From positions 45,847-109,846 of the IMG/VR virus record IMGVR_UViG_3300045303_000182: a stretch of DNA of 64,000 bases. One strand, 5' to 3'. Source of the stretch: a virus. The notes below the pieces were generated by a model that saw only the letters and a program-made list of their open reading frames with translations, had not been told where the DNA came from and ran no database searches. Position 1 is the stretch's first letter. Every line of letters starts with the position of its first letter. Made by a program: the position numbers and the translations under genes. Shown here piece by piece: positions 25,731-63,041 of the stretch.

Positions 25731-27386
25731 TCACTCGGTCTGTTCGTCAAAGTCTGACCGCTCCGGCGGGTGCGGTCCATAGGCCATCCACTGAAGCTCC
25801 TGAGCCATCGCCGGATCGACCTGCTGGAGCATCGGAACGGGGTTGCCCTCGGCGTCAGCGCCCATCATCGGCTGCCCGTCGGGTGTCATGCCCGTCGCCA
25901 TCATGGTGAAGCTGTTGATCTGGCCGCGGATGAGGTCGAGCGCACCCTGCTGCTTCGTGTCCTCCAGCACCTCTTCGAAGATCTCGCGCATCTTCTGGTC
26001 CGGGAAGGCGTAGCCGAGGTCGCGCAGCGCTCCGCGTCGGGACTCGAGGTTCATCGCCATCATCGCCTGGATCTCGTTGATCTTGATCAGCCGGTCCATC
26101 GGCATCGGGGCGGGCCAGTCCACGTAGGTGCGGTAGCTCGCCGGGTCGTTGGGGTTGAGCTCGGGGTACTGGTCGGGCTTCAACTCCGTCGAGGACAGCA
26201 TCGGGTTGTACACGACGAGGTCCGGGGCGAAGAGGAAGGCGTGCCGGATGATCAACTCGTTGATCTGCTGGAACAGCGGCGTGTACTGGGTCTTCTTGCG
26301 CTCGTACTTGAGCATCAGCGGCTGGTACTGGATCGACAGTGCGACGCCTGATGTGTTACTGATCGGCTGCATCGTGCCGAGCGCCTGAGCCGGGACGCCG
26401 GTCAGTTCGTGCATCGCCTGCTTGAGCAACTCCATGTAGCCGAGCGGACCGGTGAAGTTGGTCTGCAACTCCAACTGGCTGATCTTGGCGTCCTTGTTGT
26501 TGATGGCCCACACCTTGCGTGGACCCTTCTCCAGGTTCGACGCCTTGGCTCCGGTGATCACCGTGACGGGAGCGACGTGGTAGTTGATGATGTCGCTGAT
26601 CTCCGTGGCCTTCTCGTTGTACTCACGGTTGAGCGAGACGAGGTCGGTGATGTCGGCCAGGCCCCACGGCGACGAGGCCACAGGGATGTTGGTGCAGAAG
26701 GCGATCGGGATCGTGCCCAGCGGGTTGGGGCGCGCGTCGATCAGTTCGTCGTTGATGTACTCCTCGATCGTCTCCTCGGTCATGAGCTCGACGTATGTCA
26801 TCACCATGCGCGAGCCGTCCGAGGCCGTGCCCCAGAACTTGTACTTGAGCTTGAAGCGGATGAGGCGCGATCGATCGTGCGGGTGGAACTCCGGGAAGCA
26901 GAAGGCGGGGTTCAGCGGGAGGATGCGGATCTTGCCGTTGTGCGGCACGCCGGCCGGGTCCACGTACGGGTCTTCGAAGGCGACCTTGACGAACACGTCA
27001 CCCGAGACACCACCAAGCTGGCCGATCTCCTGGAGGATCCCCATCTTGTTGTTGTGGACCTCCCACACTTCCTTGAGCGAGTACGGCACGATGGCCGCGG
27101 TCGCCTCGGGGCTGTGGAAGTTGATGCCCTTGCCGAAGCAGAAGTTGCAGATGTAGTCCGCGAACGCGCGCACCCAGTTGAAGACCAACTGCGGCTCGCC
27201 TATCTCACGCTTGTATGCCCAGTGATGGCCGAGGTACCACGCCCAGTTGCTGGCGTACCGGTTCATCCGAGGTCCGTGGACTTCGAACTCCTCGTCGGCA
27301 AGCTCCACCAGACCCAGCGGTGAGATAGCAACGGTGAGGTCGCTGGCAGCGCCTCGGTAGCTGGGTGGGTAGAAGGTGGCTGCCAT
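25731..27386 (-). CDS. Portal protein (SPP1 gp6-like)
   Basis: The 551-residue protein forms the dodecameric DNA gate at one capsid vertex. Features: GQLGGVSGDVFVKVAFEDPY near residue 130, PNPLGTIPIAFCTNIPV (~225), LADITDLVSLNREYNEKATE (~245, the typical 'Dli.lq..lN...s' helix) and ALGTMQPISNTSGVALSIQY (~335, the common 'sg.al...' portal element). The start overlaps the stop of the preceding gene by TGATG. The C-terminal tail is Gln- and acid-rich. Confidence 0.85.
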   Translation of the reverse strand: MAATFYPPSYRGAASDLTVAISPLGLVELADEEFEVHGPRMNRYASNWAWYLGHHWAYKREIGEPQLVFNWVRAFADYICNFCFGKGINFHSPEATAAIVPYSLKEVWEVHNNKMGILQEIGQLGGVSGDVFVKVAFEDPYVDPAGVPHNGKIRILPLNPAFCFPEFHPHDRSRLIRFKLKYKFWGTASDGSRMVMTYVELMTEETIEEYINDELIDARPNPLGTIPIAFCTNIPVASSPWGLADITDLVSLNREYNEKATEISDIINYHVAPVTVITGAKASNLEKGPRKVWAINNKDAKISQLELQTNFTGPLGYMELLKQAMHELTGVPAQALGTMQPISNTSGVALSIQYQPLMLKYERKKTQYTPLFQQINELIIRHAFLFAPDLVVYNPMLSSTELKPDQYPELNPNDPASYRTYVDWPAPMPMDRLIKINEIQAMMAMNLESRRGALRDLGYAFPDQKMREIFEEVLEDTKQQGALDLIRGQINSFTMMATGMTPDGQPMMGADAEGNPVPMLQQVDPAMAQELQWMAYGPHPPERSDFDEQTE

Positions 27387-28225
27387 CAGAATCCTTCGAA
27401 CTGCATCTGGTTGGCGACCCGACGGTGCGTCGGCTCAGGCTCAGGCTGTGATACCGCAGTATGGCGCAGTTCGGACAGCAGCGGCTCATGCGCGCTCTCA
27501 GTGGAGGCTCCCCACTCGCCCAGGCCCGCCCCCTTGCCGATGCGCTCCACGTCGTTGGTGGAGAAGTCGATCGCCTCGCTGAGGCTGCCCATGCCGCCAC
27601 GGATCAGGCCCCACTTGGGCGTGTAGCCGATCGTCTGCCCGCTGCGCTCGCCCTCGTTCGCCACGACCGGATCGAACAGCGCCTGCTGGATGTGCGGCAG
27701 CTTGCCTTGCTCCTGGTGGAGGCGGTTGGCCTCGGGCGTGCCCTGCACAGCGTGGTGAGCGAGGTCCACGTAGTCGAGGCTGCCTCGAGCTTCGATCGTC
27801 GGCTCGCGACCGGTAGGGGTGTAGTCATGCACCCCTTGGGGGGCTATGGCGTGGTCCCGTACCGTGGTACCAGGACGGAGACGTACCTCGGCCTCGTTGT
27901 CGAAGCCCCACTGCGACTTGCCGGTCTTGAACTCGCCGTTGTCGGTGTAGTGCGAGCGGATGTTGCCGCCCATCCACTCGCCCTGGCTGATGATCTGGTC
28001 AGGGTCCACGACCGCTCGATGCACGGTGCGCTCCTCGTCGCTCCCGCCGAGGCCGGTGTAGTGAGCCACGTTCTGGTCGGTGGTCCAGTGGACGCCAAGT
28101 GAGTCACCAGGCCCGCCCTGCATGCGGTAGATCGTCGTGTTCGGCGTCGGGTTCTTGGCGAGCTTCTGGAACTGCTCCTTGCGGAGCTTCATGGCAGCCC
28201 ACTCTTCATCGCTCACACCCGCCAT
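27386..28225 (-). CDS. Putative ADP-ribosyltransferase-like virion protein
   Basis: A ~279-residue protein upstream of the portal. The ATG at 28225 is chosen because TGATG overlaps the previous stop; a GTG lies three codons earlier. Residues ~30-125 fit an R-S-E class ADP-ribosyltransferase pattern: TIYRMQ (Arg), VHWTTDQNVAHY (an STS-like strand with Thr-Thr), and NEAEVRLRPGT, which supplies an E-x-E pair before the typical l.pG. strand. Such enzymes are injected by T4 (Alt) and are fused to head proteins of other phages. The function is a motif-level inference. The remaining ~150 residues match nothing I recognise. Confidence 0.5.
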   Translation of the reverse strand: MAGVSDEEWAAMKLRKEQFQKLAKNPTPNTTIYRMQGGPGDSLGVHWTTDQNVAHYTGLGGSDEERTVHRAVVDPDQIISQGEWMGGNIRSHYTDNGEFKTGKSQWGFDNEAEVRLRPGTTVRDHAIAPQGVHDYTPTGREPTIEARGSLDYVDLAHHAVQGTPEANRLHQEQGKLPHIQQALFDPVVANEGERSGQTIGYTPKWGLIRGGMGSLSEAIDFSTNDVERIGKGAGLGEWGASTESAHEPLLSELRHTAVSQPEPEPTHRRVANQMQFEGF

Positions 28226-42097: not shown

Positions 42098-42201
42098 ATC
42101 TCCTCCATGATAGCTGATTCCAGCAAGCTAGCGGTTGACAACGTTACGGTTGTGTGACGCTAGGGTGGTGCGACCCTCCCTTACCTACCAAGGAGATAAG
42201 C

Positions 42202-50751: not shown

Positions 50752-50832
50752 CTACCCAACGAGCGCAACCACCAACACGCACAGCAAGCCGGTGACGGCT
50801 GCGAAGATCAACGCCTTCGACTCGTCGCTCAT
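50752..50832 (-). CDS. Very small membrane protein
   Basis: A 26-residue peptide (MSDESKALIFAAVTGLLCVL + VVALVG) with one transmembrane helix. Its ATG overlaps the RHH stop as ATGA, which argues for real translation. Role unknown. Confidence 0.4.
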   Translation of the reverse strand: MSDESKALIFAAVTGLLCVLVVALVG

Positions 50833-51029
50833 CGTCGGTTCGGCCAGTTGTCGGAGACGCCCTGATCCTTGCGGTAGCGCTGTGGCCCCCGCATCATGCT
50901 GTCCGGTTGGACGCCCTGGCGTCCCAACTCTTGCCGGATCGCTGCCTGGAGTAGTGGGCTGAGGCTCAGCCCGTACGCCTCAACGAGGTCATCGAGCTCA
51001 GCCGGTAGGTAAACGGTGCGTTGTGCCAT
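50829..51029 (-). CDS. Ribbon-helix-helix DNA-binding protein
   Basis: A 66-residue protein. The N terminus QRTVYLPAELDDLVEAYGLS and the helix that follows (PLLQAAIRQELG) give a ribbon-helix-helix (CopG/Arc-like) fold: a beta strand RTVYLP, then two helices. Leaderless: TAATGT lies six bases before the ATG. A perfect palindrome covers that element, so it probably represses itself. It may act as an antitoxin-like or operon repressor; no toxin is adjacent. Confidence 0.65.
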   Translation of the reverse strand: MAQRTVYLPAELDDLVEAYGLSLSPLLQAAIRQELGRQGVQPDSMMRGPQRYRKDQGVSDNWPNRR

Positions 51030-51261: not shown

Positions 51262-51281
51262 GTTACTAATGCGGGCATGCC

Positions 51282-51303
51282 ATAGCCGCCTATAGGCGGC
51301 TAT
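51282..51303. repeat. Perfect 22-bp palindrome (hairpin B)
   Basis: Arms ATAGCCGCCTA and TAGGCGGCTAT are perfect complements with no spacer. Second of the four inverted repeats. Confidence 0.6.
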
Positions 51304-51346
51304 TGTTGCTAGCAAGTCGTGCTCATAGTTGAGCTCGACCAGGGCA

Positions 51347-51370
51347 TATGCACGGCTATTGCCGTGCATA
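51347..51370. repeat. Perfect hairpin C, TATT loop
   Basis: TATGCACGGC and GCCGTGCATA form a 10-bp stem around TATT. Third of the four, with outer arm bases different from its neighbours. Confidence 0.6.
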
Positions 51371-51391
51371 AGCACGACCAGTTGCCAACGA

Positions 51392-51411
51392 TAGACGGCT
51401 ATTGCCGTCTA
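51392..51411. repeat. Perfect hairpin D, TATT loop
   Basis: TAGACGGC and GCCGTCTA form an 8-bp stem around TATT. Last of the four; only the GGC-TATT-GCC core is shared with hairpin C. Confidence 0.6.
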
Positions 51412-51585
51412 CGTGCCGAGGGATACAGGTGCTCGAGGCGTTCGCTAGTAGCTACGAGCTATCAACTCGGAGCGTTATCGATGAGTCATTGTCTGCATTC
51501 ACTCATGAGCTCGGTGACTGATATGGGCATGGGTGGCTCTCACCGGCCGCAATAGGGCGCGCCGTTGGTATCGGCATATGGGGTG

Positions 51586-51678
51586 ATGAGCACTCAGTAC
51601 GCATGGGACACGGCGCTAACGCCATGGGCCGAGCATGGGCTGACCATGGGCCGAACGAGTACGGTCGTGGGATGTTGA
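51586..51678 (+). CDS. Possible leader peptide of the methyltransferase
   Basis: A 30-residue frame (MSTQYAWDTALTPWAEHGLT...). Its stop TGA overlaps the methyltransferase ATG at 51672 closely (ATGTTGA), so it could couple translation to the enzyme. It has no ribosome site. Evidence is weak. Confidence 0.25.
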   Translation: MSTQYAWDTALTPWAEHGLTMGRTSTVVGC

Positions 51679-52980: not shown

Positions 52981-54687
52981 TCACCACCCGCCGACGTGGT
53001 GGCGCTTGCTGGGCACCCACTCCATCAGTGCCTCGTACTGCACCGACTCTTCGCTCATCGTCACCGGGCGACCGGCGTTCACCGCGTCGCACACGGCAGC
53101 CTTGCGCTCTAGGACGACCCAGCCAGCCGCGTCGAACGTCGCGTCGCCGTCGCTGTAGTGGGCCTGCAGGACGTGCCACGTCACGCGCTCACCGGCAGCG
53201 GCGCGGGCCTTGGTGATGTCATCGACGCGCAGGTTGCGACCGGCCGTCTGAGCAAGGTCGCCCGCCGACCACGGCACCTGCACGTACACCGCGTCCGAGG
53301 CTGCGGTGAGCGTGACGGCCATGCCCGCCGCCTTGACCTGCGCGAGGCACACCTGCGCGTCACCGGCCTGGAACTCTGCGATGGCGTCGGTGCGATCGTC
53401 GCCGGTCACCGAGCCGTTGATCGACACGATGCTGATGCCACGGCCGAGCAGGGCCAGGCTCAGCTTCGTCCACACCGACTTGTGGTCGTAGAACGCGATG
53501 ACCTGCTTGCCCTCAGCGACGAGGTCAGCGATGTAGTCGGCGGCGTACTCGGCCTTGGCGACGCCCGCCTCTTCGCGGAGCATGCCCATCTGGACGACGG
53601 CCTGCGCGCGGCTGACCTTGTCGGCCCACACCGCGCCGCGCTCTTCGGCGCACAGGTTGTAGAAGTCCTTCTCGACCCGCTGGTACCGGCGCATGATGCT
53701 GTCGGGCAGCGTGGCCGGGACGATCGTCCAGCCGCTGTGGGGCAGCACGCCCTCGCCCAGGTCGGCCTTCTCGCGGCGCACGTAGGCCGTGCGGCGCAGG
53801 CAGTCGTGCAGCACCAGCGCGGTGGCCGTGTCGATGCCGGTGAACTTCGTGAACGTGCGCCCGCCCTTGGCACGGCCCTGGACCGGGGCGCAGTAGCGCC
53901 ACTTGTAGCTCGCCAGGCTCGACGCGCCAGGCGTGACGGCCTTGACGAGCGCCTCGCCGCCGACGATCTGCAGCGGGATGAACGCCTCGATCGGGCGGTT
54001 GGTGAGCAGGGTGCCGGTGGCACCGACGATCGGCGTGCCGACCGAGCGGCACCATGCGCCGACGGCGAGCATGACCTTGCTGCGGCCGGTCGGCTTGTCG
54101 CCGTTGCCCTTGTCGCGGTGAATCTCGTCGCGAGCGATCAGCGACGCGGTCTGCACCCAGGCGCTGGCGACGTGGTGCTTCTTGCCGTTGGCACCGACGA
54201 CCTCGTCGGTCAGCCAGGTGCTCATCGTGCGGCTGTCGTCGCTGATGAAGAACACGTCGGCGTCGGGCAGCGGGAGACGCTTGTGGCCCTTGACGATGCA
54301 CAGGCGCAGGTTGGGGAAGCACGCCGCCAACTCGGTGATGTAGCCACCCTCGGCCACCGGAGGGGCGACGATGATGGCGGGGCGACCGGTGGCCGCGATG
54401 CGCTCGGCGGCGAGCGCGAGCAGCACGGCCGTCTTGCCGAGGCCCATGTCGTCACCGACGAGGCAGCCGCCCCAGCGGGCGATCGACGCCTGGGCGTACA
54501 GGTAGGCGCTCGCCTGCCAGGGGTGGAAGGGGCGAGCGAGGCCGGGGATGACGACCGGCGCAGCCGGGGCGAGCGCCTTGCTGGCGGCGAGCCAGGCATC
54601 GTCACCGAGGCCGTGGAACGCCACGACGGGCGTAACGGGCGCAGCGGCCGCAGCGGCTGCGAGTGTGGGGTCAAACAGGTTGGTCAT
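52981..54687 (-). CDS. SNF2-type helicase / DNA translocase
   Basis: A 568-residue SF2 ATPase. Motif I DDMGLGKTAVLLAL (~80), DEIH in RDEIHR (~186), motif III GTPIVGATGTLLTN (~222), motif V/VI TLTAASDAVYVQVPW and QTAGRNLRVDD (~482), with an N-terminal HPWQASAYLYAQ Q-like motif. The layout is that of single-polypeptide Snf2/SMARCAL1-like phage proteins. It may remodel DNA or strip proteins during replication or repair. Minus-strand operon with the shared TTGGTT...GCTAGC promoter and a TATCCT -10. Confidence 0.8.
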   Translation of the reverse strand: MTNLFDPTLAAAAAAAPVTPVVAFHGLGDDAWLAASKALAPAAPVVIPGLARPFHPWQASAYLYAQASIARWGGCLVGDDMGLGKTAVLLALAAERIAATGRPAIIVAPPVAEGGYITELAACFPNLRLCIVKGHKRLPLPDADVFFISDDSRTMSTWLTDEVVGANGKKHHVASAWVQTASLIARDEIHRDKGNGDKPTGRSKVMLAVGAWCRSVGTPIVGATGTLLTNRPIEAFIPLQIVGGEALVKAVTPGASSLASYKWRYCAPVQGRAKGGRTFTKFTGIDTATALVLHDCLRRTAYVRREKADLGEGVLPHSGWTIVPATLPDSIMRRYQRVEKDFYNLCAEERGAVWADKVSRAQAVVQMGMLREEAGVAKAEYAADYIADLVAEGKQVIAFYDHKSVWTKLSLALLGRGISIVSINGSVTGDDRTDAIAEFQAGDAQVCLAQVKAAGMAVTLTAASDAVYVQVPWSAGDLAQTAGRNLRVDDITKARAAAGERVTWHVLQAHYSDGDATFDAAGWVVLERKAAVCDAVNAGRPVTMSEESVQYEALMEWVPSKRHHVGGW

Positions 54688-54727
54688 GGGATTCTCCGTC
54701 GAGTGGTAGGTGAACGGGTGAGAGGTC

Positions 54728-54760
54728 AGGATACAGGCGTGCTAGCAGAAACCAACACGC
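54728..54760 (-). promoter_or_regulatory. Shared-type promoter of the helicase gene
   Basis: Minus strand: TTGGTT (54750-54755), 16-base spacer containing TGCTAGCA, then TATCCT (54728-54733). One of six copies of a GCGTGTTGGTTTCTGCTAGC promoter in the right third. Confidence 0.6.
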
Positions 54761-54767
54761 CCGGCGA

Positions 54768-54800
54768 TACCGGGGTATGAGATTGGCCCATACCCCGGTA
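54768..54800. promoter_or_regulatory. Two TAYCNNGRTA palindromes
   Basis: TACCGGGGTA (54768-54777) and TACCCCGGTA (54791-54800), 23 bases apart, just upstream of the helicase promoter. Likely paired operator sites for one factor. Confidence 0.5.
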
Positions 54801-54815
54801 CCGGGCGTTGATGAC

Positions 54816-55682
54816 TCACCAAGCCTTGGTGCTGCAGACCGGGCCGATGCCCTGCTTGCGCCACTCGCTGGTGAGGGTGATGCCGCACCGGCCGCACACG
54901 CCCAACTCCTTGCCGTACAGCACGGTGGCTGCCTGCGGGTCGAGGGCGATGGCGGCGAGGATGGCCTCGCGGCTCGCACGGTTGCGGATGGGGAACAGGT
55001 CGTCGGACGCCTGCGCCGAGACGAACACGAAGCCCTCCCACTTGCCGCCCTTCGCGCCGTGCTCGACGCGGTAGAACTTGACGATGCCGTCGTCGTCGGT
55101 GAGCGCGTAGCGGCCCTCGGCCACGGTGGGCGCAGCGACCGGCGCAGCCGCCGTCGGGGCGGGGCACTGGCCGTCGAGGTGGAACGTGTCCCAGCCCTTG
55201 CCACACGCCTTCTGAGCGATGCGACCGAGGCCCTCGGCCACCTTGCCGCCGCAGGTGACGCACTTGGCGGCGAACTTGTTCGGACGTACCGCGGCAGCCG
55301 TGGCGGGACGGTGGCGGCGAACGACGCTCAGCGCGTCGGTCAGCTTGATCGCGCAGGCGACGTTGTCATACTCGTCGGCCGTCCCGGCGAGCACGTCACC
55401 GACGTTGGCCGGGGCGTGCTGGTTGACGGCAGCGAGGTCGTCGGCCGTGAGGCCGTACGTGACCGCCTCGGCCTGGATCAGCTTGATCAGGGCCTTGGAC
55501 TGCTCGACCGTGCTCGACGCGTGCAGGGCGCACACTGTGAGCCACTGGCCGTTGTCGAGGGCGGCGAAGTCAACACCGGCCTGGGTGGCGGTGCCGCAGA
55601 AGAAGCACAGCTTGCCGCTGTACTTGGACGGGATCGCCTTCTGGAACCGGGCGAGTCCTGCGGGGGAAGTCTGAGTGGTCAT
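54816..55682 (-). CDS. Zinc protein with DUF6011-like C terminus
   Basis: A 288-residue protein. Two or three zinc-type sites: LCFFCG (~26-29), CVTCGGKVAEG (~140), and a C-terminal CGRCGITLTSEWRKQGIGPV followed by Cys, which matches the DUF6011 plan (C..Cg..Lt...s...GiGp.C). The middle is an Ala/Asp-rich domain. Likely binds DNA near the helicase and is transcribed by its own shared-type promoter (55721-55749). Function of DUF6011 is not established. Confidence 0.55.
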   Translation of the reverse strand: MTTQTSPAGLARFQKAIPSKYSGKLCFFCGTATQAGVDFAALDNGQWLTVCALHASSTVEQSKALIKLIQAEAVTYGLTADDLAAVNQHAPANVGDVLAGTADEYDNVACAIKLTDALSVVRRHRPATAAAVRPNKFAAKCVTCGGKVAEGLGRIAQKACGKGWDTFHLDGQCPAPTAAAPVAAPTVAEGRYALTDDDGIVKFYRVEHGAKGGKWEGFVFVSAQASDDLFPIRNRASREAILAAIALDPQAATVLYGKELGVCGRCGITLTSEWRKQGIGPVCSTKAW

Positions 55683-55720
55683 GGGGTGCTCACTTTCGTG
55701 GTAGGTGACGAGCAGTTACT

Positions 55721-55753
55721 AGGATGCCGCGGGTGCTAGCAGAAACCAACGCG
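55721..55753 (-). promoter_or_regulatory. Shared-type promoter of the zinc protein
   Basis: TTGGTT (55744-55749), 17-base spacer with TGCTAGCA, -10 CATCCT (55721-55726). The leader then carries CACCTACCA before the start codon. Confidence 0.55.
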
Positions 55754-55831
55754 GCGCTCGGATTTCCCTGAGCTCGAGCTCATAAGCCCTGGTCACAGCC
55801 TCGAGATTGCCGGCGGCGTAGGCCCTCGGAG

Positions 55832-55963
55832 TTACCAGTCGGTGCGGTACATGAAGTTGAACAGGATCCAGATCGCGATGCCGAGCGCCACGAACGCGAG
55901 CACGATCGGGATCACGTCGTGGTACCACGCGTGGTCACCCTGGCGCGGTGGTCGTCGTCTCAT
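55832..55963 (-). CDS. Small membrane protein
   Basis: A 43-residue protein (MRRRPPRQGDHAWYHDVIPI) with a single transmembrane helix (VLAFVALGIAIWILFNF). Its first bases overlap the end of the next membrane gene. Found by reading the sequence. Confidence 0.5.
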   Translation of the reverse strand: MRRRPPRQGDHAWYHDVIPIVLAFVALGIAIWILFNFMYRTDW

Positions 55964-56102
55964 CGATCGTGGGCGCGTGGGCGGGTGAGTCATCGTTCAG
56001 CAGCATCATCACCATGAGCGCGACGAGCAGGACCACGAAGCCACCGACGACGAGCACGAAGAACGATCGCAGCGTGTCGTCGTCAGCCTCGGCCGGGTCC
56101 AT
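55935..56102 (-). CDS. Small membrane protein
   Basis: A 55-residue protein from the ATG at 56102. Acidic N terminus, transmembrane helix (FFVLVVGGFVVLLVALMVMM), and acidic Thr-rich end. The upstream frame is antisense-like. Co-transcribed with the next 43-residue membrane protein; a two-part membrane complex is possible. Confidence 0.5.
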   Translation of the reverse strand: MDPAEADDDTLRSFFVLVVGGFVVLLVALMVMMLLNDDSPAHAPTIDETTTTAPG

Positions 56103-56460
56103 ATGGGCGACCGTATCCCGGTATCGGACGATGATGCCTCGGATCGCCGGCAGACCTCGAGGCGCTCCGCACGAATCGAAACGGCCCACGCGTGTGCGGA
56201 TCGCGGGTGCCCGTTTCCCCCTCGGAGGCGTGGCTGTGTGCCCCGTAGCGAGGCGCTAGCGGCGCGGACGCATCAGCACAGCACGCGCTCACAGCGAGGC
56301 TCACAGGGCCACACAGCGCCTCGGACTTGACCCCGGACGCGGCTCAGCCCCCGCTCACCGCGGGCACCCATGGGGACCGGGGAGGGGGGCTGAGTCTGAT
56401 CGTCGTGGGCCACCTACCAAGCAGCCACGACGACTGCCTGCAGCATGCCACGCGCAGGGG
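56103..56460. other. Gap without gene
   Basis: Holds a TATCCCGGTA palindrome (56114-56123), a GCTAGC (56255-56260), and a 10-bp stem (56343-56352 with 56385-56394) that probably ends the minus-strand 56461 gene. No convincing gene seen. Confidence 0.5.
56343..56394 (-). terminator. Terminator hairpin
   Basis: CTCAGCCCCC (56343-56352) pairs with GGGGGCTGAG (56385-56394). It lies downstream of the last gene of the Ku operon on the minus strand. Confidence 0.5.
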
Positions 56461-56634
56461 CTAGTCGAAGAACGAGCGAATCGCCTTCGCCACGATGAAG
56501 CCGGTGAGGAAGTTCTCGCCGTACCGCTTGGCACGCGGCCACAGCGGGCCACGATCGACCGCTGGCGCGGGGCGCACCGTCTCGGCGTAGAAGTCAGCGA
56601 CCTCACGCTCGGCGCGCCGATCCTGCGCGCTCAC
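56461..56634 (-). CDS. Small protein, last gene of the Ku operon
   Basis: A 57-residue protein (SAQDRRAEREVADFYAETVR, LWPRAKRYGENFLTGFIVAK). GTG start overlaps the previous stop (GTGA). No motif. Confidence 0.5.
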   Translation of the reverse strand: MSAQDRRAEREVADFYAETVRPAPAVDRGPLWPRAKRYGENFLTGFIVAKAIRSFFD

Positions 56635-56756
56635 GACAGCTTCGCGATCAGGCTGGCGAGCAGCGGCTGCTCGTCGGCGCACAGCAGGCCGGGGATCGTG
56701 AACGCACTCAGCAGGCGGCGCAGTAGCTCACGCTCGGCGGGTGTCAGGTCAGGCAT
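56631..56756 (-). CDS. Very small helical protein
   Basis: A 41-residue protein (MPDLTPAERELLRRLLSAFT). Coupled by TGATG at 56756. Unknown. Confidence 0.45.
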   Translation of the reverse strand: MPDLTPAERELLRRLLSAFTIPGLLCADEQPLLASLIAKLS

Positions 56757-56917
56757 CACGCCACCACCGCGGGCAGCGGGAACGACCACCCGGTGGTCGT
56801 CGCGTGGATGTCCTTGCACGCCTCGCACGTCGGCGGGCGATCGTTCATGATCACGGCCTCCCACGGCCCACCGCAGAGGGTGAGCCGTGGGGTGGCCTCG
56901 TCGTAGAAGTGAGTCAT
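56756..56917 (-). CDS. Small CxxC protein
   Basis: A 53-residue protein with Cys ~15 and CEACKDIH (~33-40), possible zinc site. Coupled by TGATG on both sides. Unknown. Confidence 0.5.
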   Translation of the reverse strand: MTHFYDEATPRLTLCGGPWEAVIMNDRPPTCEACKDIHATTTGWSFPLPAVVA

Positions 56918-57261
56918 CACGCCACGTCCGCGTACGAGCGGCGGCGAACGATCTTGTAGATCGAAGGCTGCGCCAGGCCAAACCGGCGACCGAGCGCCGA
57001 CTGGCTGTGCCCCTCGGCGTGCAGGCGGCGAATCTCGCGGACCTGATCGTCGGTGAGCACGCGGCCGGTGGCGACCACGTTGTTGGCGTGCGTCAGCGCA
57101 CGAATCTCGTCGGCAACGTCGGCGCGCTGCGCCTCGCCGTCGGCAATGAGGGTGGCGAGCAGGACGCGGCGCTCGGTGAGCTTCGCGTCGAGCCGCGCCC
57201 GGAGCGACGCGATGTCCGCGTCGATCCGGGCCACCCGGTCGAGGGGTGCGAGGCGGCTCAT
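56917..57261 (-). CDS. HTH protein with coiled coil
   Basis: A 114-residue protein. Residues ~10-50 form a coiled coil (RIDADIASLRARLDAKLTER). The C terminus DQVREIRRLHAEGHSQSALG + RRFGLAQPSIYKIVRR is a helix-turn-helix of the resolvase/Hin type. DNA-binding regulator is inferred. In the operon between Ku-like and small genes. Confidence 0.6.
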   Translation of the reverse strand: MSRLAPLDRVARIDADIASLRARLDAKLTERRVLLATLIADGEAQRADVADEIRALTHANNVVATGRVLTDDQVREIRRLHAEGHSQSALGRRFGLAQPSIYKIVRRRSYADVA

Positions 57262-57467
57262 GACTGCGCCGCCGTGAACGCGGCCAGCGCGAGCGCCTCG
57301 ACGCGCTTGGTCAGCTTGCCGTCGCCGCTGTAGGTGAACGTCGGCTCGCCGCCGTCCTCGCCGGGGCGCACGGTGATCGTGCCGAACCAGCCGTGGAACT
57401 GCCCGGACAGGCGCACCACGCCACCGTTCAGGTGGCGGGTGCTGTAGTCGTACTGCAGGCCGCTCAT
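57258..57467 (-). CDS. Small protein, unknown
   Basis: A 69-residue beta-rich protein (SGLQYDYSTRHLNGGVVRLS, GKLTKRVEALALAAFTAAQ). The ATG at 57467 overlaps the Ku-like stop by TGATG. No motif. Confidence 0.5.
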   Translation of the reverse strand: MSGLQYDYSTRHLNGGVVRLSGQFHGWFGTITVRPGEDGGEPTFTYSGDGKLTKRVEALALAAFTAAQS

Positions 57468-58276
57468 CACGCCACCTTGCCCTTCGCAGCCTTGGCCGCA
57501 TCGATGCTCGCCTGCAGGTCGGCCATCAGGTCACCGATGACGGGGACCGCGGGCTTCGCCGGGGCGGGGACGCCCTTGGCCTTGTTGTCCACGAACGCAC
57601 GCACCGCGGGCGCTGTGTCATCGGTGAGCACCGGGGTGCTGGTGCCGACCGCGTCGAGCAGGGCCTCGGCCAGCGCCAACTCGGCGGCGCTGAACTTGAA
57701 GCCGTCGTTCAGGTCACGCGCCTCGCGGACCTGATCGGCCGTGCGGACGTAGGTGAACGAGCCGTCGGCGGCGAGCAGGGCGTAGCGGGCGGGGCCGCGC
57801 AGGGCGACCCGGACGAGGGCGACGACCTTCTTCTTCCGCAGCACGGTGAGCAGCAGCGCGAACGCCTTCTCACCGGCAGCGTCGGCCTTGCCCTTGACGG
57901 CCTTCGGCCGAACCTGCGCCACGTCCTGCGCGGCGTAGTTGCCCACGTCCTTGACGGGGATGAAGGTGACGATGTCACCGACGCCCTTCGGGCAGGTGCA
58001 GTCGGCAATCTCGTCGTCGGTCAGGACGACCCACGCGCCGTTGCTGGCCTCGGCCATGCGGACGACGCGGTCCGACGGGATGACCTCGCCAGTGTCCTTG
58101 CGGATGGGCGAGCGGCCGACGGGGATCGATGCGTCGCCGTCGAGGAACTCGTTGCGGGAGACGCGTGTCTCTTCGGTGCCGGTGTAGACACCGAGCGGGA
58201 TGTTCAGCACGCCGAAGGCGAGCGTGAACGAGTTTGATGCCCGTTGCGGGGCGGGGGCGAGTGCGGTGGTGCTCAT
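57467..58276 (-). CDS. Ku-like DNA-end-binding protein
   Basis: A 269-residue protein. Residues ~15-150 fit the Ku core: FTLAFGVLNIPLGVYTGTEE (is.GL..ip.....at), GRSPIRKDTGEVIPSDRVVR, and SNGAWVVLTDDEI, as in bacterial Ku (yy.v..dG..ev...d.v....... g..vvltdeE). Phage Ku proteins (for example in Omega and Corndog) cooperate with host LigD to circularise genome ends. The remaining part (RKKKVVALVRVALRGPARYA) is also Ku-like. Leads a five-gene operon; shared-type promoter at 58317-58345. Assignment by motif; no ligase seen here. Confidence 0.65.
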   Translation of the reverse strand: MSTTALAPAPQRASNSFTLAFGVLNIPLGVYTGTEETRVSRNEFLDGDASIPVGRSPIRKDTGEVIPSDRVVRMAEASNGAWVVLTDDEIADCTCPKGVGDIVTFIPVKDVGNYAAQDVAQVRPKAVKGKADAAGEKAFALLLTVLRKKKVVALVRVALRGPARYALLAADGSFTYVRTADQVREARDLNDGFKFSAAELALAEALLDAVGTSTPVLTDDTAPAVRAFVDNKAKGVPAPAKPAVPVIGDLMADLQASIDAAKAAKGKVA

Positions 58277-58316
58277 GGGATTCTCCGATTGGTAGGTGTG
58301 GAGTGGAACGGGGATC

Positions 58317-58350
58317 AGGGTATCGAGCGTGCTAGCAGAAACCAACACGC
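58317..58350 (-). promoter_or_regulatory. Shared-type promoter of the Ku operon
   Basis: TTGGTT (58340-58345), 17-base spacer with TGCTAGCA, -10 TACCCT (58317-58322). Leader with CACCTACCA before GGAGA and the ATG. Confidence 0.55.
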
Positions 58351-58364
58351 CGATACGTGAGATA

Positions 58365-58544
58365 TCAGACGGTCGTGACGACCCAGCCGTCGCGCTCGAC
58401 GACCACGTCGTACTCCCGGAGGATGTACAGGGTGGCCCAGGCGATGAGCGCCCGGTCGGTGCGCTCGACGTGCGAGTCGATTTCGAGCGGCTCGCTCAGT
58501 TGCGGGTGGCTCAGGCGGTAGGTGATTTCGTGGGTGGTAGGCAT
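58365..58544 (-). CDS. Small protein, unknown
   Basis: A 59-residue protein (MPTTHEITYRLSHPQLSEPL, TDRALIAWATLYILREYDVV). Its start codon follows a shared-type promoter with only six bases to the -10 (CATCCT), so it is leaderless. First codons overlap the CCTACCA leader word. Unknown. Confidence 0.5.
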   Translation of the reverse strand: MPTTHEITYRLSHPQLSEPLEIDSHVERTDRALIAWATLYILREYDVVVERDGWVVTTV

Positions 58545-58856
58545 GCGATCAGGATGGGGTTTCTGCTAGCTGAAACCAACACGCGGCCCGGATTGCCGGC
58601 GGTGACATCCGTCACCTCGAGGTCCGCAACGCATACGGGCCGAGCATGCGCCCACGGCCCTCGTACGACCGGCTGTGTGGCCGCGTGAGCGGCGATCGGC
58701 ATCGGGCGCGGTGCTTGCCGCTCACGGCCGCAGCGAGGCTCACAGAGCCTTGTAGGCCGTGCGCGCCACCTTCGCCCCATACCCGGATATGGCACGCCGA
58801 ACCGGGAACGCGAAGCAGCCCCCCGTTGCCGGGGGGCGTGCTCGGAGCGGGGCGGC
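58545..58856. other. Gap with promoter, palindrome and terminator
   Basis: Contains the shared-type promoter of the 59-residue gene (58551-58579), a TACCCGGATA palindrome (58780-58789) and a CCCCCC/GGGGGG stem near 58816-58833 whose minus-strand tail resembles the other terminators and ends the AAA+ gene. No gene seen in this 312-base gap. Confidence 0.5.
58816..58838 (-). terminator. Intrinsic terminator after the AAA+ gene
   Basis: GCCCCCCG/CGGGGGGC type arms with a short loop; the minus-strand tail reads TGCTTCGCGTTC, similar to TTCTTCGCGT of two other terminators. Confidence 0.6.
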
Positions 58857-60131
58857 TCAGGCTCGGTGGGCAGCCTCGGCCGCAGCCTGCCGCAACTCTT
58901 CGTTGAGCAGGATGATGATCGACCGATCCTCAATGATCGACTCCACGATCGGCCGCTCGTTCGGGCCGAACATGCTCGTCAGCACGTTGAGGCCGACGAC
59001 CGGGCCGAACGTCGCCACGTTGCGCTCGCAGCGCTGCAGGGCGGCGGTGCCGACCGGGGTGCGGACGCTGTTGCGCTCGCGGGCCGTGCGGAGCGCGTCG
59101 CCCAGCAGGCGGATCGCCGCCGACTTGATCAGCTTCGTCTCCACGTCGCCGTTGTAGCCCCAGCAGACGTGCTCAAAGCGGTTGACGAACGCCTCGTTCT
59201 GCTTGCCCATGCCGACGTAGCCCTCGTTCAGCGTGCCGATGACCCACAGGTCGAGCGACGCCTGAGTGACCTCGGCCATGAACTGGCCCTTGTTGAACAC
59301 GGCCTTGTTGCGGTTGACGAACAGGTGCCGGTGGTCGATCAGCGGGTGCAGCGACGACGTGACGCGCGGGTCGAGCGCGTTGACCTCGTCCAGGTACAGG
59401 ATGCCGCCGACCTGCGCCGCCAACTCGACCATGCCGGGGAGCCAGACGAGCGACTCGACGCCCGTCGCCGGGTCGGTGTAGCTCGTCGTCTGGCCGAACA
59501 GGTCGAAGTCGGTGACGCCCGACGAGCCGCTGATCGTGAAGATCGGCATCGGCTTCGGCAGGCCGAGGCGCTCGGCCCACACGATGGCGAGCACTTCGAC
59601 CAGCATGGTCTTGCCCGACTGTGTGTCACCCTTCAACAGGACCGAGGCGGGGCGACCGGCGTTGTTGCTGTCGGCCCGGTACGGGTCGCTGGTGAAGGCG
59701 AGCAGGAAGTCGATGTCGGTCAGACCGGGGGCGACCTCGCGGCCGATGTACTGGCGGAACTTCCGCTTGCTCGGACGCAGGTGGTCGAGCCGCTGGTCCA
59801 TCGGATCGGTGATCGGGTCGAGGATGCGGGCGACCTGCGCCACGGTGGCGACGGCGACCTGCTCGGTGGCGACCAGCGTGGCGACGGGAGCCGTCAGCAC
59901 CGGAGCCGGTGCGGGAGTGGCGACCCCGGCGATGCCGACGGGAACGTCCTTCAACTGACGGGGGAGGATGTAGTAGTGCGTGCCCTCAGGCGTCTCGACC
60001 AGCACCTTGCGCTGGTTCGGCTCGCCGTCGGCGACGGGCTTGCTGTCGAGGATGGTGACGACCTCTCCGGCGAAGTCGCCGTCCTTGATTTCGTACTGCC
60101 ATCCGGTGAGGAGTGCTGCTGCTGTTGCCAT
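58857..60131 (-). CDS. MoxR/CobS-like AAA+ ATPase
   Basis: A 424-residue AAA+ protein. An N-terminal beta domain (residues 1-65, KDGDFAGEVVTILDSKPVAD) is followed by the AAA+ core: Walker A LKGDTQSGKTMLVEVLA (~166), TISGSSGVTDFDLFGQ, Walker B GILYLDEVNALDP (~242), sensor-1 region WVIGTLNEGYVGMG, and an arginine-finger-like FVNRFEHV. This is the CobS/MoxR pattern. It pairs with the divergent CobT-like VWA protein. Family members act as chelatases or as chaperones that assemble or disassemble protein complexes; here the target is unknown. Shared-type promoter at 60175-60202. Confidence 0.8.
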   Translation of the reverse strand: MATAAALLTGWQYEIKDGDFAGEVVTILDSKPVADGEPNQRKVLVETPEGTHYYILPRQLKDVPVGIAGVATPAPAPVLTAPVATLVATEQVAVATVAQVARILDPITDPMDQRLDHLRPSKRKFRQYIGREVAPGLTDIDFLLAFTSDPYRADSNNAGRPASVLLKGDTQSGKTMLVEVLAIVWAERLGLPKPMPIFTISGSSGVTDFDLFGQTTSYTDPATGVESLVWLPGMVELAAQVGGILYLDEVNALDPRVTSSLHPLIDHRHLFVNRNKAVFNKGQFMAEVTQASLDLWVIGTLNEGYVGMGKQNEAFVNRFEHVCWGYNGDVETKLIKSAAIRLLGDALRTARERNSVRTPVGTAALQRCERNVATFGPVVGLNVLTSMFGPNERPIVESIIEDRSIIILLNEELRQAAAEAAHRA

Positions 60132-60174
60132 GGGTATCGGTCCGTTCGGTGAGTGGTAGGTGGGAACGAGTACG

Positions 60175-60207
60175 ACTCTAGGCCGGTGCTAGCAGAAACC
60201 AACACGC
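60175..60207 (-). promoter_or_regulatory. Shared-type promoter of the AAA+ gene
   Basis: TTGGTT (60197-60202), 16-base spacer with TGCTAGCA, -10 TAGAGT (60175-60180). Leader with CACCTACCA at 60154-60163. Confidence 0.6.
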
Positions 60208-60420
60208 GTATCGCGATATCGGCAGAAACCTCGAGTTTCCCCTGGTCAGAGGGGGTGAGCTCCCCGAGCTCATATCTCGGTACCACACGCGAGACCCTTG
60301 CCAGCAACTCGACGTGCGAAGAATCTGCGATGCCGGCGGCGGGCGAAAACAGCCTCTGACCTGGACCTCGAGGCTCGCGCCGGCCGCCTCGACGGCATGT
60401 TCGCCCGATACCTCGGTACC

Positions 60421-60453
60421 GCGTGTTGGTTTCTGCTAGCAGGGGAGTAGAGT
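60421..60453 (+). promoter_or_regulatory. Shared-type promoter of the VWA gene
   Basis: TTGGTT (60426-60431), 16-base spacer with TGCTAGCA, -10 TAGAGT (60448-60453), seven bases before the ATG. The only copy on the plus strand, and apparently leaderless. Confidence 0.6.
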
Positions 60454-60460
60454 CATCCCC

Positions 60461-62794
60461 ATGACCACGCCACCTACCACCGTCGGGGGAAAGCCTCCGA
60501 AGAAGGCGCGGAAGAAAGTCACGACCGACCTCGGTCGTCAACTTCTCACCCGCGAACGTCAGCGCCTCAGCCGTGAGCAGGCTGCTCTTGCCGAGCAGCA
60601 GCTTCTGGAAGCCGAGCGCGCCCGGACCCAGCAGAAGCGCAACGTCAAGTCGGCCAAGCCGCTCGACATCGCTGTCAGCCGGTCGATCGTCAAGCGCTTC
60701 GCAGGCGTCCTCGCCTCCGAGGGTGTCAGCGTCCGCATCAGCGCCACGCCGAGCACCACGACCAGCGCCTGGACCGACTTCGAACAGATCGTCATCAACT
60801 ACGTGCAGCAGGACGACGACCGCGTGCTCGCCGCCACCATGCGCGGCCTGGCGTACCACGAAGGTGGTCACTGCCGGTTCACCCTCCCGTTCATCCAGCT
60901 TGCCGAGGCCGCGGGCCAGCCCGCCGACACGAAGCTGCACCGGGCGTGGAACTGCCTGGAAGATCAGCGGATGGAGACGGCCGTCGTGTCGGACTCGCCG
61001 CGCAAGGCTGCGTATCTCACGCCGATGATCATGCTCGACTTCGTTCCTACGGTGAACCACGCCGCCGCCAACTGGCCGCTGCTGGTCTGGCGTCGGTACC
61101 TCCCGACGCACATCCGCAAGGGCGCTCGCAAGCTGTTCGTCCACCAGCACAACCTGATGGGCCTCGACGGCGAGGCGCTCGCCAAGTCGATCGAAGCCGT
61201 CACCACGAAGTACGTGCTGGCCGACAACGCCGTGACCATGTGGGAAGCGGTTGTCGAGTACGCCGCGCTGCTCCAACAGACCGCTCCGTTCGCTGCGAAC
61301 GTCGATGACAACGCCATGGGCCACCAGCGCCAGTACAAGCGCTCCGAGCGCAACCTGGACGACTTCCTGGTCATCCCGGTCGAGGGCGGCATGGTTGACG
61401 AGGGTGCCGACGAGGCAGCCGACGAGGCCGACGAGTCCGACACGATCGACACGGTCGAGGGGTTCCAGCACTTCCTCGACATCCTGTTCGCGCTGCTCAA
61501 CGGCCAGGACATCCTGCCCCCGGTCATCTACGCCTCCAAGGGCGAGGGTGAGCAGGGCGAGGGCGCTGGCTCCCCGTCCGACGAGGCGCAGCCGCACGGC
61601 GACGCTGCCGACGAGGGCGACGACGAGGGCGACGAGTCCGACGACGATGCCGAGGCCGAGGGCGACGAGTCCGAGGGCGGCAAGGGCAAGGGCAAGGCTT
61701 CCGACGACGACACCGAGGGTGCCGACGACGACGAGGCCGAGGCTGGCTCCAACGGCTCCAACGACGACGACGACGACGACGACGAGGCTGACGCCACGGC
61801 GACGGGCGGCGACGACGACGGCCTGGACTTCGCCAACGAGCCTGCCGACGACGAGCAGGACGAGCAGGGCGGCGCGAGCGGCGAGCACAAGAACACTGGC
61901 GTGCGCGACGACCTCGACTACAAGAACGACGACGACCTGACCGACGAGGCGCTCCAAGAGGCGATCGATGAGGCTGCTGCCGCTCGCGACAGCGACCCGA
62001 CGCTCGACGGCGACGTGCAGTCGCTCCACGATGCGATCAACAACCGCACCAGCGACCTGCTGCCGTACAACGCAGGCGTCAGCCAGGACATCGCCGCCGA
62101 GGCGACGGGCCGCAACCTGGCCGACGACATCGAGCAGGCGTTCCGCGAGAACACGATCGACAAGGCTCCGGGCTGGGTCGAGGGTCAGCGTCGTGGCATC
62201 GTCAACGTGCTGCGCTACGAGACGCGTCGCCCCGGCGACGTGGAGTTCTTCCGCCAGTACACCGAGACGGACGCCCCCGGCCAGAACATCGCCGTGTCGG
62301 TCCTGCTCGACTACAGCGGTTCCATGGGCGGCGCGACGCTGGAACTGGCTCAGGCCGGTTACGCCACGAAGCTGGCTTGCCAGGCGCTCGACATCCCCTG
62401 CACCGTGACCCTGTGGGACACGCAGGCGACGGTGCTCTACGACGCCACCGAAGAGGCCGACCGCCTCCCGGTGATCGTCTCGGCCGGTGGCACCGACATC
62501 ACGGTGGCGGTGGCCGACCTCGACAAGCAGCGCTACGAGAAGGACATCCACATCGTCATCATCATGACCGACGGTGCGTGGTCCGGGGCGTGCGGCCAGA
62601 ACGGCTTCCTCGCTTCCTACAAGGGCGACGAGGGCCGGTACTTCATCGGCCTCGGCTACAACAGCGGCTGGGGCGACTCCGGTCCGGGGATGGCCGAGAA
62701 CCTGCGCCGCTACGGGTGCGACGAGGCCCACGGCATCGCCTCCCTGATGGAGATTCCCCGCTACTTGGAGCAGGCGCTGGTCGCCTTCTCCTGA
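60461..62794 (+). CDS. CobT-like VWA protein with HExxH motif
   Basis: A 777-residue protein. Residues ~1-60 are basic and helical. HEGGH (133-137) with NCLEDQRMETAVV after it is the CobT/VWA-associated HExxH plus LEDxR element. Residues ~320-510 are strongly acidic Asp/Glu/Gly repeats. The C-terminal VWA domain has MIDAS DYSGSMGG (Asp617), a Thr in GGTDITVAV and TDGAW (Asp704). With the divergent AAA+ ATPase it makes a CobS-CobT-like pair. In the cobaltochelatase the acidic part and MIDAS touch the ATPase; a metal-loading or remodelling complex is the likely form. No CobN partner is seen. Terminator at 62811-62841. Confidence 0.8.
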   Translation: MTTPPTTVGGKPPKKARKKVTTDLGRQLLTRERQRLSREQAALAEQQLLEAERARTQQKRNVKSAKPLDIAVSRSIVKRFAGVLASEGVSVRISATPSTTTSAWTDFEQIVINYVQQDDDRVLAATMRGLAYHEGGHCRFTLPFIQLAEAAGQPADTKLHRAWNCLEDQRMETAVVSDSPRKAAYLTPMIMLDFVPTVNHAAANWPLLVWRRYLPTHIRKGARKLFVHQHNLMGLDGEALAKSIEAVTTKYVLADNAVTMWEAVVEYAALLQQTAPFAANVDDNAMGHQRQYKRSERNLDDFLVIPVEGGMVDEGADEAADEADESDTIDTVEGFQHFLDILFALLNGQDILPPVIYASKGEGEQGEGAGSPSDEAQPHGDAADEGDDEGDESDDDAEAEGDESEGGKGKGKASDDDTEGADDDEAEAGSNGSNDDDDDDDEADATATGGDDDGLDFANEPADDEQDEQGGASGEHKNTGVRDDLDYKNDDDLTDEALQEAIDEAAAARDSDPTLDGDVQSLHDAINNRTSDLLPYNAGVSQDIAAEATGRNLADDIEQAFRENTIDKAPGWVEGQRRGIVNVLRYETRRPGDVEFFRQYTETDAPGQNIAVSVLLDYSGSMGGATLELAQAGYATKLACQALDIPCTVTLWDTQATVLYDATEEADRLPVIVSAGGTDITVAVADLDKQRYEKDIHIVIIMTDGAWSGACGQNGFLASYKGDEGRYFIGLGYNSGWGDSGPGMAENLRRYGCDEAHGIASLMEIPRYLEQALVAFS

Positions 62795-62810
62795 CCAATC
62801 CCACGGCCCA

Positions 62811-62841
62811 GGCCCGGAGTGCTCCAAAGGCGCTCCGGGCC
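62811..62841 (+). terminator. Terminator after the VWA gene
   Basis: GGCCCGGAG (62811-62819) pairs with CTCCGGGCC (62833-62841), followed by TTCGG. A CACCTACCAAGAGG leader then precedes the next gene. Confidence 0.65.
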
Positions 62842-62870
62842 TTCGGCCATCACCTACCAAGAGGTACCCC

Positions 62871-63041
62871 ATGAACCGATACGAGAAGGCGTTCCACGAA
62901 ACGCACAGCGTCCTGTCCGAGTGGCTGCCCGACGCGGAGCCGTGGAAGGTGGACACGATCACGCGCAAGGTGGTCGAGAGACTCATCGCCAAGGGCGTCG
63001 TGCAGAGCACCGACCCGGACGAACTGAGCGTGCCGTCGTGA
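62871..63041 (+). CDS. Small protein, unknown
   Basis: A 56-residue helical protein (NRYEKAFHETHSVLSEWLPD, WKVDTITRKVVERLIAKGVV). Preceded by a CACCTACCAAGAGG leader with AAGAGG as ribosome site. Starts a row of overlapping small plus-strand genes. Confidence 0.5.
   Translation: MNRYEKAFHETHSVLSEWLPDAEPWKVDTITRKVVERLIAKGVVQSTDPDELSVPS

Follow-up and report, generated by a model that had tools for sequence, protein, structure and literature searches.

What reads a promoter that recurs, almost unchanged over 20 bp, ahead of genes on both strands of one viral locus? The locus lies in the 64,000-nucleotide stretch analysed here (the window), which is the right end of the 109,846-bp virus record G000 (hereafter G0). 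The present comparison suggests that seven copies of one phage promoter probably define a regulon within a cluster of ~11 kb, with an operator in the promoter spacer that would be read by a DNA-binding factor. A first-pass annotation had proposed a regulon from six of these copies; the seventh site, a leader element with the sequence CCTACCA, and the different promoter cores found in related phages go beyond it.

In the proposed mechanism, host RNA polymerase would read each sigma-70-like promoter (TTGGTT, 16–18 bp, TANNNT or CATCCT), the spacer of which would hold a putative operator centred on GCTAGC, with its left arm overlapping the −35 box. A DNA-binding factor at this operator would time expression, as a repressor more likely than as an activator, and CCTACCA (CAC[CT]TACC in the relatives) would mark the first ~20 nt of each transcript. 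The specificity of the factor would differ between phages, and the promoters would have been re-keyed among the relatives. We infer the factor, its sign, the re-keying of promoter specificity, and any role of the leader element from the arrangements described below.

Phage type and layout of the cluster

The G0 record encodes a tail-sheath protein and a terminase that is 46–47% related to those of Streptomyces phages such as BRock and GiJojo, and a profile search for tyrosine integrases (PF00589) gave no match in G0 or in its relatives G1–G4. Together these features suggest a phage of myovirus type with an actinobacterial host. A megablast comparison of positions 53000–63000 with isolated phages returned no match, and a scan of genome contigs gave no hints of the host. 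In the relative G2, the genes p189 and p158 come after the VWA gene, and this gene order, common to G0 and G2, indicates that the ends of the G0 record probably adjoin in the genome. If they do, all seven promoter sites would fall within the one ~11 kb cluster.

Promoter copies and downstream genes

The 20-mer GCGTGTTGGTTTCTGCTAGC, searched with up to three mismatches, has six matches on the two strands of the 64 kb, against a mean of 0.01 in shuffled sequences. Four are exact (copy 1, 54741–54760, −; copy 3, 58331–58350, −; copy 5, 60188–60207, −; copy 6, 60421–60440, +), while copy 4 (58565–58584, −) has one mismatch and copy 2 (55735–55754, −) has two. The six copies reported in the first-pass annotation are thereby borne out, as is their anatomy: TTGGTT occupies the −35 position in all six, the spacers are 16, 17, 17, 17, 16, and 16 bp in copies 1–6, and a TANNNT or CATCCT −10 box follows.

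Annotation with Pfam and PHROGs gave the following assignments. Copy 1 (54728–54760, −; GCGTG-TTGGTT-16-TATCCT) precedes a helicase gene (52981–54687, −; SNF2-rel/Helicase_C, phrog_62), and copy 2 (55721–55754, −; CCGCG-TTGGTT-17-CATCCT) precedes the gene at 54816–55682 (−) for a 288-aa protein (phrog_636), earlier labelled a zinc protein, a label left unproven by a weak DUF6011 match. The other genes that had been named, namely, Ku, 59-aa, AAA+, and VWA, like the helicase, were confirmed. Copy 3 (58317–58350, −; GCGTG-TTGGTT-17-TACCCT) belongs to the Ku operon, which encodes a Ku-like protein (57467–58276, −; PF02735, 3.9e-15) and a 114-aa protein (56917–57261, −) with a resolvase-type helix-turn-helix (HTH_7, above the cut-off). 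The Ku-like gene is also present in IMG/VR relatives, and tblastn found none in the isolated phage collection. Copy 4 (58551–58584, −; GCGTG-TTGGTT-17-CATCCT) serves the apparently leaderless gene of an orphan 59-aa protein (58365–58544, −), whose AlphaFold model has low confidence. Copy 5 (60175–60207, −; GCGTG-TTGGTT-16-TAGAGT) precedes the gene of an AAA+ ATPase (58857–60131, −; AAA_5; phrog_249, "porphyrin biosynthesis"). Copy 6 (60421–60453, +; GCGTG-TTGGTT-16-TAGAGT) precedes that of a VWA protein (60461–62794, +; CobT-like, weak CobT_C match), also apparently leaderless, its −10 box being located 7 nt ahead of the ATG at 60461.

When the rest of the genome was searched, as the first-pass annotation had recommended, the core turned up a seventh time beyond the window, at record position 1332 (+). 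Here GTTTCTGCTAGCAGAAAC, a perfect 18-bp palindrome, is followed by TATCAT and then by the GTG start of the 189-aa gene at record position 1369. All seven promoters have a −35 to −10 distance of 16, 17, or 18 bp, in agreement with sigma-70/SigA-type spacing, and their −10 boxes are of the TANNNT type in five cases and CATCCT in two. A scan with the strict sigma-70 consensus (TTGACA/TATAAT, at least 9 of 12 positions) found no promoter in 54600–60600. The assignment of the −10 boxes, and with it the earlier reading of these sites as promoters, is supported by the 59-aa, VWA, and record-1369 genes, because their start codons sit 6–7 nt past the −10 box, the geometry of leaderless transcripts.

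The spacer operator

Six of the seven copies have TGCTAGCA as the core palindrome, and the remaining one has AGCTAGCA; the palindrome is contiguous, with a perfect half-arm of 3–9 bp centred on GCTAGC. The longer palindrome is complete only at the record-1369 gene and nearly complete at the 59-aa gene (GGTTTCAGCTAGCAGAAACC). The other five copies retain the left arm, overlapping the −35 box, and the 8-bp core only, the right arm being lost, and a symmetric dimer site is therefore complete, or nearly so, in two copies only. The palindrome that had been taken as a likely regulator site is present, and its binding role, with five of the seven copies reduced to left arm and core, is one that we infer.

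The exact GCTAGC-type pattern has only three matches in viral contigs, which we read as coding (a LAETN-type peptide) and set aside. Other genomic occurrences of GCTAGC near gene starts often overlap a −10-like TAGCNT and are read as a separate element.

The near-identity over 20 bp and the location of every copy in one cluster could also be explained if no regulator were involved and the 20-mer were a strong promoter cassette spread by copying within the genome. We consider this improbable. The information content of the aligned copies falls directly after GCTAGCA, as would not be expected had a larger segment been copied recently, and no flanking sequence is common to the copies except the separately placed CCTACCA, the distance of which varies.

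We have also considered a phage-encoded activator, or a sigma-appropriating factor, that would bind the spacer and −35 region as at T4 middle promoters and switch the regulon on. TTGGTT is a poor sigma-70 −35 box, in line with the negative consensus scan, and the left arm and core, kept in all copies, overlap and follow it, a placement that could suit a class II activator. However, the spacing is a normal 16–18 bp, and the evidence from the relatives given below also speaks against activation, which we regard as possible but rather unlikely.

The leader element

CCTACCA lies 9–20 nt past the −10 box in all seven promoters. Between −50 and +25 it is present at 7/7 starts of the regulon, compared with 2/51 of the other starts that have a gap of 35 bp or more and 0.4% of random 75-nt windows. 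The element is found in the 5′ leaders belonging to copies 1 (54704–54710, −), 2 (55699–55705, −), 3 (58290–58296, −), and 5 (60154–60160, −), and within the coding sequence for copies 4 (58535–58541, −; codons 2–4) and 6 (60473–60479, +). It is inside the reading frame of all three apparently leaderless genes, in frame 0 in the 59-aa and VWA genes and in frame 1 in the 189-aa gene. We read CCTACCA as a probable nucleic-acid element because 5′ leaders and coding sequences alike carry it; the frame argument alone is modest, two of the three genes sharing a frame. A few more copies stand ahead of other starts, for example at 42184 and at 62853–62859 (+), the latter just ahead of the start of the reading frame 62871–63041 and not accompanied by a promoter copy.

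One tentative reading, to which we give a low probability, would make CAC[CT]TACC an element that this phage lineage dedicates to the starts of its transcripts, acting on messages with and without a leader, either as an RNA signal or as a signal in the initially transcribed DNA, and kept while the operators were re-keyed.

A post-transcriptional regulon, in which a small RNA of the phage encoded at 56400–56440 (−) would target CCTACCA, was suggested by the exact complement UUGGUAGGUGG, which lies there between complementary arms (10-bp stem), outside the called genes and downstream of the Ku operon. However, a 10-bp stem is likewise present at an occurrence within coding sequence of this genome, the hairpin is not the minimum-energy structure of the 61-nt fold (z −1.1), and Rfam gave no match. 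Since the relatives' loci examined have no such hairpin outside genes and the folding is no better than that of many shuffles, this model was rejected as highly improbable.

The same genes in related phages

Related contigs were gathered by scans with AAA+ and Ku alignments, and five relatives were compared: G1 (L017), G2 (L021), G4 (L019), G11 (L016/L018), and G12 (L030). Most orthologues in these carry another repeated promoter core, GTTGTGATACC, GTGTTGTGTTACC, or GTGTGTGATAC (up to two mismatches), mostly 63–77 nt upstream of the start or in leaderless geometry, the distance matching that in G0. Such a core precedes the helicase and 288-aa genes in 5/5 relatives (269 nt upstream for the G4 helicase), the AAA+ gene in 4/4 relatives whose contigs include its 5′ end, p189 in 3/3, and p59 in 1/1. 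It precedes Ku in 2/5, with no clear site in G1, G2, and G11. A clear site is likewise lacking close to some of the VWA orthologues, the sites in G1 and G11 being uncertain. Over 50 residues, the 59-aa proteins of G0 and G2 share 82% identity, yet each has the promoter type of its own phage.

That most orthologues have a repeated promoter typical of their phage at a corresponding distance, in another sequence, supports the proposal of one regulon and speaks further against copying within the genome. Because a different repeated promoter stands before the same genes, the arrangement looks like a re-keyed phage regulatory circuit, and it provides a natural swap experiment, with the same genes under different promoter cores; the leader element recurs in several of the relatives. 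CAC[CT]TACC leaders are found in four of the five relatives (G1, G2, G11, and G12; not G4).

The sign of control is addressed by the geometry of these sites. Some G2 sites are long inverted repeats that reach from the −35 box to past the −10 box, TGTGATACCAGTGTA-N-TACACTGGTATCACA. An activator bound there would hinder the polymerase, the second arm of the site being at or past the −10 box, and the relatives' −10 boxes are a near-consensus TACACT. Because of this arm position we favour repression over activation.

The sequence TTGTGATAC is absent from the G0 record. In the relatives it also occurs elsewhere, some of the copies being complements of ribosome-binding regions, and its total count is therefore not a promoter count. 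More distant relatives (G5, G6, G7, and G8) have other repeated start-linked sequences. Those in L024 and L023 (G7, G8) are GACACACCCGACACCTCAGG-type repeats, several of them ~20 bp ahead of gene starts, and in L022 (G6) ACCGAACCGA is repeated, with 3/4 copies upstream of gene starts. In G2, a GAGAAATC/GAAATC-like sequence lies shortly upstream of many cluster promoters (e.g., G2:C1:69911−, 63225−, 62625−, 61774−, and 60963−), and one similar sequence, GAAATCCGAG, lies upstream of copy 2 in the window.

Candidate regulators

The 114-aa helix-turn-helix protein of the Ku operon is a speculative candidate for the regulator. Its AlphaFold model, from a two-sequence input (mean pLDDT 82, pTM 0.38), predicts a long N-terminal helix (residues 4–65) followed by short helices, and its structure matches are weak. 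Among the contigs compared, G2 alone has a counterpart (40% in BLAST and 47% across aligned columns), and none of the relatives has a PF02796 match. This distribution argues against the 114-aa protein as the regulator.

Other candidates were set aside. The MerR-like protein (record 26662–27108) has a helix-turn-helix region largely common to G0, G1, and G2, whose cores differ; its gene is also present in the Streptomyces phage GiJojo, in which the early region examined has no comparable repeated promoter. The search for a WhiB regulator found none, and for the ribbon-helix-helix protein (record 27946–28161) RHH_1 matches only G000, G007, and G008 of 11 records.

Comparison with known systems

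The closest parallel is the ESAS of cluster K mycobacteriophages, a multi-copy intergenic element (seven in Adephagia) combining a SigA-like promoter with an imperfect inverted repeat of two 15–17 bp arms around a variable spacer, the left arm better conserved than the right; its consensus differs between subclusters, which was proposed to reflect different DNA-binding specificities (PMC3203893; PMC11373665). The G0 element likewise has several intergenic copies, a SigA-like promoter, and an imperfect inverted repeat with a better-kept left arm, and its core varies among the relatives as the ESAS consensus does by subcluster. It differs in being a compact, contiguous GCTAGC-centred palindrome in the spacer; the spaced long arms absent in G0 appear in G2. 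The cluster K phages are moreover temperate siphoviruses, whereas G0 is of myovirus type with no tyrosine integrase detected, and the sequences are unrelated.

The cluster K SAS (GGGATAGGAGCCC) is a short conserved start-linked element with a Shine-Dalgarno core, typically 3–7 bp upstream of the start codon; it is coupled in part to the repeats linked to promoters and is conserved across subgroups in which these repeats differ (PMC3203893). CCTACCA is also short, start-linked, and promoter-coupled, and recurs in relatives with different cores, but it has no Shine-Dalgarno core and sits after the −10 box, within the coding sequence of leaderless genes. No SAS match with up to two mismatches was found in the window.

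The stoperators of L5 and other cluster A phages are 13-bp asymmetric immunity-repressor sites of temperate phages that also stop elongation (PMC9283540, PMC6550527). They resemble the G0 element in that one phage site is present many times and diverges in specificity from one phage to another, and differ from it in their asymmetry; their phages are temperate, and no tyrosine integrase was detected in G0. The L5-type consensus was taken as the 13-bp GATGAGTGTCAAG, and the window has no match to it with up to two mismatches. The actinomycete phage phiC31 likewise has inverted repeats repeated over a phage region; these conserved repeats bind the repressor and lie across its early region, at early promoters.

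Given the lack of SAS and stoperator sequences and the different geometry of the palindrome, the G0 arrangement is, as far as sequence comparison can tell, a design similar to ESAS/SAS without being a member of that family. The function and regulator of ESAS and SAS are reported as open (PMC3203893, PMC11373665), and a similar two-part design is present in the G0 lineage, which is not linked to cluster K. Elsewhere in the window, at 51280–51420, several inverted repeats around TATAGGCGGCTA and TTGCTAGCAA sit between the reading frame 50829–51029 and a C5 methyltransferase-like reading frame at 51603.
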